A stretch of 29,274 nucleotides of DNA from a virus, in the IMG/VR virus record IMGVR_UViG_3300005613_000313, positions 1 to 29,274 of that record. One strand, given 5' to 3'. Under the pieces are notes generated by a model, which saw only the letters and a program-made list of their open reading frames with translations, had not been told where the DNA came from and made no database searches. Made by a program: the position numbers and the translations under genes. Positions 17,267-25,134 of this stretch are shown here, in pieces. The first letter of the stretch is position 1, and every line of letters begins with the position of its first letter.

Positions 17267-19336
17267 TTATCTTACAAAAGAATTTTCTCTTTCTTGAACT
17301 AAAATTAAATCCCTGCCACTGATTCTTGTGGTTGTCATATTACTGTAACCCATTTCACCTGCTTGGCTTCCAAAGTCATAATTGCCGCCCCTTGGCATTG
17401 GGCTATCACCCGCCGCTGTTGAGCTTCCAATTCCTTTCTTGCTCAAATTGGATATGGCTGCCCCTGCTGCTACTAATGCAACACCGCCCACAATAGCTAA
17501 AGCAGGGTTCATTGATGCTATTGCTGTGTTTAACATCACTTGTGCAACACCCATCGCAATCATAGCTTCACCAAATTGGCCCATAAACTTACCAATGGAA
17601 TCAAGCAAGCCACGCCCAAAGTCTTTTGCTCTATTATCAAAATCAAATGATTCTTGTATCTCAGCTACTTTTTGGGCTTTCTCTTTTTCAATCCTTGCTA
17701 TTTCATCAGCATTCCCTTGTGCTGCTTGAATCATTCTATTGTAATGTTCTTCAGTTTGTTTTAGCTGATCATCCATCATAGTGTTTGCAGTCAATGAATC
17801 ACCCAGAAAAGAACCTAATTGACTCAACCCTTCTGTGGCTAAATCCTTCAATCCACTTGACAATGCAGCCCCCATATCTTGGCCAAGTTGTTCAAACACG
17901 TGAAGCGCTGTCGGTTTGATTGTTTCCATCTGTTCCTGCAAACCATCCATATTCACGACCGGTTCAATTGGGTTATCTTTGTTTATTTCATTGATACCCT
18001 CCATGATGGAATCGATTTCTTTTTTAAGTGCAGATACCCTTGATTCCTGTTTGTCACTTGGACCTTGTGCAGAACCGCCGCCGCCGCCCCCAGTGGATAC
18101 AGTGGCTACTGTTGGCGCAACACCGCCAAACTCTTTTTCTATTGACTTTTTTACTCCCTTAAATGAATCCTTTAAACTCTTGAATTCTTTTGTGCTTTCC
18201 CTTGTTTTTAGTTTAAATGAATCCAGCCAATCATTAACATCCTTGCCAATATCAAGGCCCATTATTGTTGCCAATTTAGTGTGACCAGAAATCATAAACT
18301 TAATGGCATCAACAAATCCATTTGCTATTTTGACCCATATATTATAGAAGAAATCCGCAAACGCTTGTGCATTATCCCTTACATATAAGAAGGCTGCAAC
18401 CAAAGCACCAATGGCCACAATTATTGCCGTTATAGTTAAAACAATAGGATTGGCAGCCAGAAATGCAAGCGCTGTTGTAAGTCCTGCAATGCCCAACATC
18501 AACGGACCAATGGCCGCAACTAATCCAGCAATCACAAGTATCATTTCTTTTGTAGCGGGTGTAGTGTCTTTGAACCTTTGTATCACCACTTTCATCTTGT
18601 CGGCAAAAGGTATCAAATATTCTGCTATTATCTTCCCAAATTCCTCAGACAAATCACCAATGGCCATTTGTAGCTGTTGGAGTGGTCCAAGACCTGCTCT
18701 TGCAGCCGCTTCAGCACTACCACCATATTGTTTTTCTAATTCATTTAATATCAGCGTTTGGGCTTCTGCCAACCTATTGGTTTCAACTAATGTCTTAACC
18801 GTTTGCTTTTGGTCCGTACTAAACTGAATACCTGCCCTGCTTAATGCAGAAAGATTTGCAACCGGATCATTTAAAGCCTTGCCCAACATTATTGAACTGC
18901 TCTTTAAATCGCCATCCAACCTTGTTGCAAGATCCAAGGCTGCTTGTTGTGTTCTTTCAAACTGAACCCCTGCAATGTTTGTGAATGTCAATAGTTGGGC
19001 CGTTGCACCTTTCAATATTTCTTCATCACCAAAAAGACTGTTTTGCTGTAAATCCTCGGCCATCCTTTCAAGTTGCTTGCTTGTGTATCCAACAGCGTTG
19101 CCCGTTGATTTCAAACCTGCTTCTACTTGTGCCAATGCCTTGGCTTGTTCATCAAATGCCTTTAATGATAAAGCCGCCATCCCTGCAAGTGGTGCCGTGA
19201 CATACATTGACATTGATTTCCCAATGGATTTCATTTTGTTTGCTGTGCCCTGCAAACTTCTTGTGAGATTTTGTGATGACGTTGAAAACGCCTTCATATC
19301 AAATCCCGCCCGTATATTGATGCTTTTCTTTGCCAT
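17267..19336 (-). CDS. tail tape measure protein
   Basis: A 689-residue tape measure protein, which sets the tail length and is ejected with the DNA. It has the typical N-terminus with SLQGTANKMKSIGKSMSMYV and a long helical region (AKALAQVEAGLKSTGNAVGY; GDLKSSSIMLGKALNDPVAN), then a strongly hydrophobic stretch (about 262-320) that could form membrane helices, a glycine-rich hinge and coiled coils. At roughly 0.15 nm per residue the tail would be about 100 nm, if the usual rule holds. Follows the chaperones, as expected. Confidence 0.93.
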   Translation of the reverse strand: MAKKSINIRAGFDMKAFSTSSQNLTRSLQGTANKMKSIGKSMSMYVTAPLAGMAALSLKAFDEQAKALAQVEAGLKSTGNAVGYTSKQLERMAEDLQQNSLFGDEEILKGATAQLLTFTNIAGVQFERTQQAALDLATRLDGDLKSSSIMLGKALNDPVANLSALSRAGIQFSTDQKQTVKTLVETNRLAEAQTLILNELEKQYGGSAEAAARAGLGPLQQLQMAIGDLSEEFGKIIAEYLIPFADKMKVVIQRFKDTTPATKEMILVIAGLVAAIGPLMLGIAGLTTALAFLAANPIVLTITAIIVAIGALVAAFLYVRDNAQAFADFFYNIWVKIANGFVDAIKFMISGHTKLATIMGLDIGKDVNDWLDSFKLKTRESTKEFKSLKDSFKGVKKSIEKEFGGVAPTVATVSTGGGGGGSAQGPSDKQESRVSALKKEIDSIMEGINEINKDNPIEPVVNMDGLQEQMETIKPTALHVFEQLGQDMGAALSSGLKDLATEGLSQLGSFLGDSLTANTMMDDQLKQTEEHYNRMIQAAQGNADEIARIEKEKAQKVAEIQESFDFDNRAKDFGRGLLDSIGKFMGQFGEAMIAMGVAQVMLNTAIASMNPALAIVGGVALVAAGAAISNLSKKGIGSSTAAGDSPMPRGGNYDFGSQAGEMGYSNMTTTRISGRDLILVQERENSFVR

Positions 19337-19958
19337 TACTTAAACCAATTCGGTTTTGTTTTTTTCAGTTCTTCTATTTCTTCTTTGGTCCATTTATTAC
19401 CCTTTGTACCTTTCTTGGCAGTCTCATTTTCCCACTCAAACCTCATCAAGTCAGTGGGTGTTTTTATCTTCTTATTGCCTGCCCCTTTCAACGTAACGAA
19501 AGAAACAAATCTTGCGGTTTCCCAAGCCACTCTGTCATTGACTTGTTGGTTTATTTTGTACCCGTAATAAGCATCCTGCACTTCAACCATTGACCAACTA
19601 TCTAAGGATAGTGGGCTTTGTTTCAAAACGCCTAAAACAAAGCCCCGTATCCAATTAGTTAATGGTTGGTTTACTTTTTTGCTTCTACTTTCAAGTTGTT
19701 CATTGCAGCCATATCCTTGGCCATCGCTTCAGTAAACACATTAAGTAGTGACATATCATCATCAATGGCATCAATAATAAAATCCTTCGTGACTTTCTCA
19801 CCGGATGCCTTTAACCCACAATAAGCGATTGAAATAACATCAGCCATTTTGATGTTCTCACCCAACTCTGAAATGCTTTTGCCGCTTTCTTCTTCAAAGA
19901 ACAATATTGCTTTGAAACCGAATTTAAATTTGTACTCTTTGTTTTTTATTTTAATCAT
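19336..19958 (-). CDS. tail assembly chaperone GT fusion (-1 frameshift)
   Basis: A 207-residue frameshift product: the G protein to its last lysine, then a change to the -1 frame at A AAA AAG (19680-19674) and 112 more residues (VNQPLTNWIRGF, then LKQSPLSLDSW) to the stop at 19336. The second frame has no ATG before its internal methionines, only TTG, which supports frameshifting. In lambda, gpG and gpGT play this role, gpGT bringing the tail tube to the tape measure. It overlaps the tape measure's start by 1 base. Confidence 0.82.
19613..19645 (-). promoter_or_regulatory. hairpin downstream of the frameshift site
   Basis: On the minus strand GGGCTTTGTTT (19645-19635) and AAACAAAGCCC (19623-19613) form a perfect 11-bp stem with an 11-base loop. 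It starts 28 bases after the slippery heptamer, which is further than the usual 5-9 bases. It may still help frameshifting or lie in a larger fold. Confidence 0.6.
19671..19958 (-). CDS. tail assembly chaperone G
   Basis: A 95-residue helical protein from the ATG at 19958. An earlier ATG at 19988 lies in the terminator hairpin, so I set it aside. Typical of phage chaperones: a short basic strand (MIKIKNKEYKFKFGF) and helices with FFEEESGKSISELG and a C-terminal LKVEAKK. It probably coats the tape measure during assembly. The last codons GCA AAA AAG TAA hold the slippery heptamer A AAA AAG (19680-19674), from which the GT fusion is made. Confidence 0.82.
   Translation of the reverse strand: MIKIKNKEYKFKFGFKAILFFEEESGKSISELGENIKMADVISIAYCGLKASGEKVTKDFIIDAIDDDMSLLNVFTEAMAKDMAAMNNLKVEAKK
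19674..19680 (-). promoter_or_regulatory. slippery heptamer A AAA AAG
   Basis: The heptamer stands in the X XXY YYZ phase of the G frame and directly before its stop TAA. After a -1 slip the codons GTA AAC CAA continue in the frame of the second chaperone half. This is the classic bacterial -1 frameshift signal. Confidence 0.85.
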
Positions 19959-19971
19959 AATTTTTGTATAT

Positions 19972-19998
19972 AAAAAAAGGGCGGGCAATCACCCACCC
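19972..19998 (-). terminator. intrinsic terminator after the tail tube gene
   Basis: Minus strand GGGTGGG (19998-19992), loop TGATTG, CCCGCCC (19985-19979) with one wobble pair, then seven T (19978-19972). It lies between the tail tube and chaperone genes and is almost the same as the hairpin after the capsid gene. Confidence 0.8.
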
Positions 19999-20024: not shown

Positions 20025-20435
20025 TTAACTAACCACTGCTTTGGTTACAGCTCCAGTTCCTTCAAATGATACCGAGAAAGTGCTTGACTCTTCAAGTCCA
20101 TCAGTTCTTTCAAGTGAAGTGATGTAACAATCACCACTGTACTCCGTGTCACCCACCACAGAAGTGGTCCAGGTCACGTTAACTAATGTTCTCGCTATGA
20201 AAGCATCATACAAATCTTCGAAACCGTAGTTTGCATCCTCTGCAAAATAACCCTCAGCTGAACCGCTAAAACTCTTTTGCCCCTCAAGTGATTCCTTCCA
20301 CCCGTCACTGTCTTTTGTTGACGCATCTCTTGTTGAGTGATCAAATGTTAAACTGTTTGATGTTAAGTGTGCAACCGTTATGCCCAAGACTTGTATCTTT
20401 GCTAACGTTCCGTTTAATATTCCTGTACTTGCCAT
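20025..20435 (-). CDS. major tail tube protein
   Basis: A 136-residue beta-rich protein, the right size and place for the tail tube subunit. It opens MASTGILNGTLAKIQVLGIT and contains ESLEGQKSFSGSAEGYFAED, the loop pattern of TP901-1-like tube proteins, then ATWTTS-like strands and SSTFSVSFEGTGAV at the end. It is followed directly by a strong terminator, in keeping with high expression. Confidence 0.86.
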   Translation of the reverse strand: MASTGILNGTLAKIQVLGITVAHLTSNSLTFDHSTRDASTKDSDGWKESLEGQKSFSGSAEGYFAEDANYGFEDLYDAFIARTLVNVTWTTSVVGDTEYSGDCYITSLERTDGLEESSTFSVSFEGTGAVTKAVVS

Positions 20436-22021: not shown

Positions 22022-22051
22022 AAAAAAAAGGGGCGGGCATCAACCCACCCC
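22022..22051 (-). terminator. intrinsic terminator after the capsid gene
   Basis: Minus strand GGGGTGGG (22051-22044), loop TTGATG, CCCGCCCC (22037-22030), 8-bp stem with one wobble pair, then eight T (22029-22022). It is almost identical to the one after the tail tube gene and lies directly before the connector start. Confidence 0.82.
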
Positions 22052-22080
22052 CATTAGATATACAAATTAAAATTAAGTTA

Positions 22081-23927: not shown

Positions 23928-25134
23928 CTTCTTTTTTGTAATAATTTTTTATGTCAGCTATTGGTATCCTATTTATTTGTACATACCTTTCATCACCACC
24001 CTCAACGCTGTTTCTATCTTCTAACTCTAACACATCATTGATTGTATAAGCGCCTATGTCAGTCATCAATCTGTAATACTCACCTTTAGTTTTTACATCT
24101 GTTCTTAGTAAGCGGTCTACATTATGTTTGAAATAGTAATCACGCTTTTCATTTTCTTTTAGTAGCTTTCTTCTGTATTCCTGCTCTATTTTCTCAATCC
24201 AAGAACCAATGCCATAAGTCACAAACTCAATGCCCATATGTTCAATGTTGCTGTAAGTACTGCCTTCCATTTCATTTATCATAAATGAAGGGATACCCAA
24301 TATTGTGGCTATCTCATTCTTTTGAAATTTCCTTGTGGCTATAAACTCAGCATCAGCAGGTGGCATACCTATTCGGTGATACTTACTGCCAGCGTCCAAT
24401 ATTGCAGTGCCTCGTGTGCCATTCGGGCCGTAGTTGGCTGTCCATTGTTGGTTAATGGCGTCTTTCGTCTCTGGTTTTAAAGTTCCTGCATATTCAATGT
24501 ATCCATCAATACGAGTTCCTTTATTGTAAAAATCTGCACCATAATCCTGGGCCGCTATTGACAAACCCAGGTTTTGTTTATGTATTTGGATAGCACTCAT
24601 ACCAATCACTGGATCAACACCAAAACCACGAAGGTTTATAATGTCACGGTCTGGCACGAGTAAAGTTTCAGTTTTATTGTTTGCTTGTTTGGTTTCAACT
24701 TTCCAATATATTTCATCATCGTACTTTAAAGGCTCACAAATCTCTCTGCTAACATTTACCAATGAAGTTGGGTTCCCGAAATTATCACGTTCAATTATGG
24801 CCAAGCCATTACCGTGGTTGATCGCTGATGTGATTAATATTTGAGTAAAATCAAATGATATGCTTTCGTAATTAGCTTCAGCATTCAACAAATATTCAAC
24901 TGGGTGGGTAACCATTTCCCTTTTACCATTGCTTTTTCTAAACACCTCAAGTGGGAGCATTGCAACTGATTCCGTAATTCTACGAACACCGGCCCAGTAG
25001 GCTGAAAGGCCCATTGCAGTTATCTCGGTGACTGGCGTTCTACCCACCATACCACCAAAATTTGCATTCAGAAAGCCCTTTTTTTCTGCGAAAACTGGAT
25101 TAATTCTTTTAATTTCTAAACCGAAAAACTTCAC
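23920..25134 (-). CDS. portal protein
   Basis: A 404-residue HK97-type portal. The N-terminal SAYWAGVRRITESVAMLPLE (about 45-64) and the NAEANYESISFDFTQILITS region are family hallmarks, with GFGVDPVIGMSAIQIHKQNL in the middle and MINEMEGSTYSNIEHMGIEF near 285-305. It forms the dodecameric gate at a capsid vertex through which DNA is packed and leaves. A 56-base gap separates it from the basic protein upstream. Confidence 0.94.
   Translation of the reverse strand: MKFFGLEIKRINPVFAEKKGFLNANFGGMVGRTPVTEITAMGLSAYWAGVRRITESVAMLPLEVFRKSNGKREMVTHPVEYLLNAEANYESISFDFTQILITSAINHGNGLAIIERDNFGNPTSLVNVSREICEPLKYDDEIYWKVETKQANNKTETLLVPDRDIINLRGFGVDPVIGMSAIQIHKQNLGLSIAAQDYGADFYNKGTRIDGYIEYAGTLKPETKDAINQQWTANYGPNGTRGTAILDAGSKYHRIGMPPADAEFIATRKFQKNEIATILGIPSFMINEMEGSTYSNIEHMGIEFVTYGIGSWIEKIEQEYRRKLLKENEKRDYYFKHNVDRLLRTDVKTKGEYYRLMTDIGAYTINDVLELEDRNSVEGGDERYVQINRIPIADIKNYYKKEDE

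Follow-up and report, generated by a model that had tools for sequence, protein, structure and literature searches.

The window analysed here comprises 29,274 nt of an uncultured virus (IMG/VR record IMGVR_UViG_3300005613_000313) and carries, on its minus strand, a set of tail genes in the order major tail protein, G, T and tape measure, with the same flanking genes in relatives (Table 1). G and T have the genomic position of gpG/gpGT-type pairs, with the major tail protein gene on one side and the tape measure gene on the other, and the stop codon of T overlaps the start codon of the tape measure gene (TAATG). G matches the tail (chaperone) families PHROG 183/2115 with an E-value of 9e-8, and its hit to Pfam Phage_TAC_12 reaches 23.7 bits, just below the cut-off of 26.2. 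The AF2 model of G (pLDDT 79) is similar in fold to predicted tail assembly chaperones of phages (prob 1.00, TMq 0.66, best E 1.9e-3), and a fold search of the PDB with this model returned no match. PHROG, fold and the slightly sub-cut-off Pfam score thus place the G half in the tail chaperone family. The only families that T matches are PHROGs without an annotated function, including PHROG 16333 (E 2.4e-6), and the low-confidence AF2 model of T (pLDDT 61) was not used. Most relatives also have, 5' of G, a hairpin and/or T run like the one that separates G from the major tail protein gene in the window, with a sequence that has diverged. The hairpin of the window may reduce the expression of G and of the genes after it compared with that of the tail tube. 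A closely similar terminator-like hairpin (GGGGGTGGG..CCCGCCCCTTTTTTT) lies 3' of the major capsid gene (22029-22052, minus strand); both highly expressed structural genes, those for the major tail protein and the major capsid protein, are followed by a terminator-like hairpin.

Table 1. Coordinates of genes, slip site and RNA structure elements at the G/T locus of the window
Feature	Position	Strand	Remarks
Major tail protein	20025..20435	-	Directly upstream of G; PHROG 1407, E 5e-30; Pfam Phage_tail_2 above cut-off
Terminator-like hairpin and T7 run	19972..19998	-	Downstream of major tail protein, upstream of G
G, tail assembly chaperone, zero-frame product, 95 aa	19671..19958	-	ATG 19958; stop TAA 19673-19671
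Slippery heptamer A AAA AAG	19674..19680	-	Read directly; zero synonymous variation
T extension, -1 frame, 112 aa after the slip	19336..19674	-	Begins GTA 19674-19672; ends TAA 19338-19336
Spacer UAAAC, 5 nt	19669..19673	-	Includes G stop codon; 4-7 nt in relatives
Lower stem, 5' arm CAACCAUU	19661..19668	-	Compensatory A-U/U-A, columns 22-104
Middle stem, 5' arm	19648..19659	-	Pairs with 19599-19593 and 19610-19606; G-C/C-G, columns 38-82
Apical 14-bp stem, GCGUU loop	19613..19645	-	Contains the 11-bp hairpin; G-C/U-A/U-G/C-G, columns 47-73
Middle stem, 3' arm with 6-nt bulge (19605-19600)	19593..19610	-	
Lower stem, 3' arm AAUGGUUG	19584..19591	-	
Tape measure protein	17267..19336	-	PHROG 27166, E 3e-66; Pfam TMP_2 above cut-off

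Across the junction of G and T the minus strand reads ...GTA GAA GCA AAA AAG TAA ACC AAC..., with the final sense codons of G at 19682-19680 (GCA), 19679-19677 (AAA) and 19676-19674 (AAG). Direct reading agrees with all coordinates given in the initial annotation, which had G ending GCA AAA AAG TAA, a heptamer at 19680-19674 and continuation in the -1 frame. The heptamer is of the form X XXY YYZ and lies in the frame of G, as in other bipartite signals, and it leads into a second ORF in the -1 frame, the arrangement of gpG/gpGT-type genes; this frame is open from the heptamer to 19336. It also lacks an early ATG, as had been claimed: past the junction, no start-type codon occurs before TTG at 19626, and no ATG before about 19590. 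A shift at the heptamer would yield a G-T fusion of 207 aa with the predicted junction peptide ...EAKKVNQPLTNWIR. The heptamer alone says little, because AAAAAAG is common, with 24 copies on the minus strand of the window. A second in-frame A AAA AAG, near the start of the portal gene (about 25077-25084, minus strand), is followed by a strong downstream fold and is probably incidental, as both other frames close quickly.

The sequence downstream of the heptamer forms one slightly bulged rod of 34 pairs (19668-19584), beginning 5 nt past the heptamer. The minimum free energy of the segment 19673-19575 is -39.9 kcal/mol, while shuffled sequences average -19.75 (z -6.8). A 90-nt scan over 2.7 kb places the best score (z -7.67) on the segment starting right after the heptamer, the next best being -3.74, and the fold that follows the slip site is the strongest among 35 AAAAAAG copies. 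The perfect 11-bp stem on which the initial annotation relied (19645-19635 with 19623-19613, 28 nt after the heptamer) is present; it is, however, the tip of the 34-bp stem, and its identification as an isolated stimulator was wrong. Most of the proposed 28-base spacer is the 5' side of the rod's lower stem. Since CAACCAUU pairs with AAUGGUUG at the rod base (probabilities of 0.80-0.999 for the checked pairs in a 400-nt context), the true spacer measures 5 nt. An isolated 11-bp hairpin behind a 28-nt spacer is ruled out, as the flanking segments pair both in the window and in relatives. Spacers of -1 frameshift signals usually measure 5-9 nt (PMC5009743; PMC7618472), and a downstream structure supported by covariation is found here at 5 nt in the window and 4-7 nt in relatives. 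An unrecognised lower stem has been mistaken for spacer in earlier cases (2016 review, PMC5009743). The present locus shows how a locally perfect hairpin can mask a more extensive fold, so that the spacer is misjudged. For pseudoknot or ALIL pairing of the apical loop, the bulge or the spacer, no convincing conserved partner was found, the best candidates being a 6-bp pairing complete in only 64% of sequences and a 7-bp pairing in 36%.

A search of IMG/VR with the fused G-T protein recovered 76 loci with best-segment identities of 52-93%, two of which (L074 and L075) stop short of the site or at it. GC A AAA AAG is retained in all of the remaining 74 and in 16/16 further loci from a second scan by profile search. 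In the set of 74, the heptamer is directly followed by TAA or TAG everywhere except in L013, where CAA (2036-2038) replaces the stop, G is extended by four residues, and heptamer and stem are retained. One locus with a disrupted upstream frame (L019) was read from the heptamer onward. The -1 frame is open in the relatives with an intact frame, and T is conserved from the first residues past the junction. The loci with enough downstream sequence represent 42 distinct relatives, or 43 distinct sequences including the window. All 43 fold with z <= -3.1, and a comparable rod is formed in every one except L073, in which an in-frame loss of 45 nt (around 4309) removes the upper rod and leaves the lower stem. 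This deletion could be a real variant or a contig or assembly artefact; if it is real, the whole rod may be non-essential. These relatives are fairly close to the window, with the exception of L254, which was found by a scan with the major tail protein and whose G and T are 31% and 42% identical to those of the window. In L254, GC A AAA AAG TAG and the -1 relation of the two frames are retained, but a different stem follows, a 15-bp hairpin 4 nt after the heptamer (z -4.3); here the stem has been replaced, with slip site and spacing preserved. Among the approximately 90 loci there is no case of a lost heptamer with both frames intact. INPHARED yielded no convincing DNA or protein match to the G-T region, and two scans of GTDB genomes returned no prophage relatives.

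Support for the rod comes from an ungapped alignment of 42 sequences (the window and 41 relatives). When the structure of the window is imposed on this alignment, 88% of cells are paired, compared to 38-51% when the partners are slid by 1-3 columns, and 56 cells are changed on both sides, compared to a shuffle mean of 27.5. Kinship was controlled for by simulating the substitutions on a FastTree tree, with each one reassigned to a different column that has the same base. Three null models were used: free reassignment, reassignment matched for codon position, and reassignment matched for codon position with weights from the variability of the columns. Neither the observed pairing nor the observed covariation was reached in any of the 1000 simulations under each model. 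Informative pairs include those of columns 22-104 (A-U/U-A), 38-82 (G-C/C-G), 47-73 (G-C/U-A/C-G) and 34-92 (A-U/C-G/G-C), while columns 31-95, 37-83 and 53-67 are unpaired in most relatives. As some pairs are clade-specific, conservation acts at the level of the rod and not pair by pair. Additionally, the ratio of synonymous differences to expectation is 0.00 at the slip codons A-K-K, 0.26 in the first block of five codons after them and 0.19 in the second, an approximately three- to four-fold reduction compared to the values elsewhere (about 0.45-1.0, typically about 0.7). Such a profile would be expected where a slip site and the 5' arm of a stem are superimposed on coding sequence. The initial annotation had proposed to ask whether heptamer and stem persist in related phages whose third codon positions vary elsewhere, and this comparison came out in its favour.

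Taken from sequence comparison, the locus very probably encodes a programmed -1 ribosomal frameshift of the G/GT type that produces two tail assembly chaperones from one message, a proposal that the conservation of heptamer, frame and stem strongly supports. From these observed features and the covarying pairs, we infer the slipping itself, its efficiency and lambda-like roles of G and GT as follows. Most ribosomes would stop at the UAA of G. A minority would stall when the base of the rod, a bulged structure of 34 bp instead of the 11-bp hairpin alone, meets the mRNA entrance while A AAA AAG occupies the decoding sites. Lysyl-tRNA would then re-pair one base back, from AAA AAG to AAA AAA, and translation would proceed into T, giving the fusion, as the conservation among relatives suggests. 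By analogy with lambda, G would coat the tape measure protein, whereas GT, the less abundant product, would recruit tail tube subunits.

Several other explanations can be considered. The stem could have another role, as a terminator, attenuator or RNase site, with frameshifting driven by the heptamer alone, and some phages appear to use heptamers without strong structure. However, no T run follows the stem, the stem is absent from the terminator-like hits, and its start is held 4-7 nt past the heptamer. A search of Rfam matched no family at gathering score and gave only sub-threshold miRNA/sRNA matches at chance level. On these grounds together, this explanation is unlikely. Even less probable is the separate synthesis of T, by re-initiation or from a hidden start after the stop of G, with the heptamer being incidental. 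Such starts are on offer, namely TTG at +5 after the heptamer in the largest clade and, in the window, the TTG and ATG already mentioned. Against this, the first start-type codon lies at +5, +11 or +47 depending on the clade, without positional conservation, and the first ATG lies at +83 or +206. In addition, both codons of the window sit within the stem, the protein is conserved ahead of the first of them (V..PL..(W/F)IRGF), and synonymous change is absent from GCA AAA AAG. Transcriptional slippage, in which RNA polymerase adds a base on the A6 run, is equally improbable. Bacterial polymerases are known to slip on A runs, and the gain of one base would lead into the same frame as T, yet six A residues are short for strong polymerase slippage. 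The run is also invariably six A followed by G in every covering relative, and a conserved stem at the spacing of ribosomal frameshift signals, a spacing that L254 keeps with a different stem, argues against it. Finally, a sequencing or assembly error in a single gene, which as a one-base error in the A run could create the same pattern in one contig, is already refuted by the two-frame arrangement common to about 90 loci from many metagenomes and can be dismissed.

The setting of this predicted frameshift is probably a marine Bacteroidota host. The top-ranked matches of the tape measure protein are Flavobacterium phages, with Rhodobacter-group phages scoring similarly, and the capsid matches include Cellulophaga phage phi39:1, which has a similar gene order. 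A Shine-Dalgarno (SD) core is found upstream of 0/29 genes of the window, which has a GC content of 36%. In the aligned contexts, the region 9-14 nt 5' of the shift site, where an internal SD would be located, contains no conserved purine block that resembles an SD. The probable hosts belong to the Bacteroidia, whose ribosomes do not respond to SD sequences (PMC9976891). The rod would then be the main stimulator of the shift, and it is probably the only one acting in cis. A more tentative extension is that, in phages of SD-blind Bacteroidota, an unusually long RNA rod serves as the sole -1 stimulator in place of the SD-plus-hairpin combination of E. coli, with the strength and length of the rod possibly tuned to the host ribosome for the G:GT ratio.

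A close counterpart is the G/GT tail chaperone frameshift of lambda, reportedly described by Levin, Hendrix and Casjens in 1993 and by Xu, Hendrix and Duda in 2004 and 2013. As in lambda, a small chaperone gene is flanked by the genes for the major tail protein and the tape measure protein, and an X XXY YYZ site close to its end, where a -1 shift is predicted, would give rise to a minor extended product. The slip site of lambda is G GGA AAG (PMC7618472), whereas the locus described here uses A AAA AAG, with the stop codon of G directly after it and a 34-bp stem 5 nt downstream. A_AAA_AAG is the shift site of E. coli dnaX (PMC5009743), where it is also combined with a downstream stem-loop (PMC5009743, PMC7282821). 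Unlike dnaX, which has an internal SD, the present site lacks a conserved SD at the right distance, its probable host ribosome cannot read one, and the frameshift extends the protein instead of truncating it. The dnaX stem is also much shorter than the rod. The HIV-1 gag-pol signal offers a structural parallel, in which the apparent spacer forms a lower stem that a bulge separates from a stable upper stem (PMC7618472), although it belongs to an unrelated virus and ribosome, and the rod is longer and has its main bulge on the 3' side. For SPP1 17.5/17.5*, a -1 frameshift has been proposed as a siphovirus analogue of gpG/gpGT, with UUUUUUC as slip site; the portion of that report consulted does not describe a stem (PMC6316719).

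The signal is a new lineage of the known gpG/gpGT kind, in which the long stem and the SD-less setting stand out. No report of it was found in the open-access literature, and a prior description in subscription papers is possible. It provides a well-supported predicted tail chaperone frameshift in an uncultured phage lineage without a close INPHARED match, together with about 90 natural variants, one of which (L254) combines a replaced stem with the retained slip site. This makes it a good system for relating stem length and spacing to frameshift efficiency on ribosomes that ignore SD sequences. In Cellulophaga phage phi39:1 (L183, 10687-10704), the putative G and T counterparts gp19 and gp20 meet at an A8 run. 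Read by hand, the frame of gp20 is +1 (or -2), not -1, with respect to that of gp19, and phi39:1 may use another kind of shift, or polymerase slippage.
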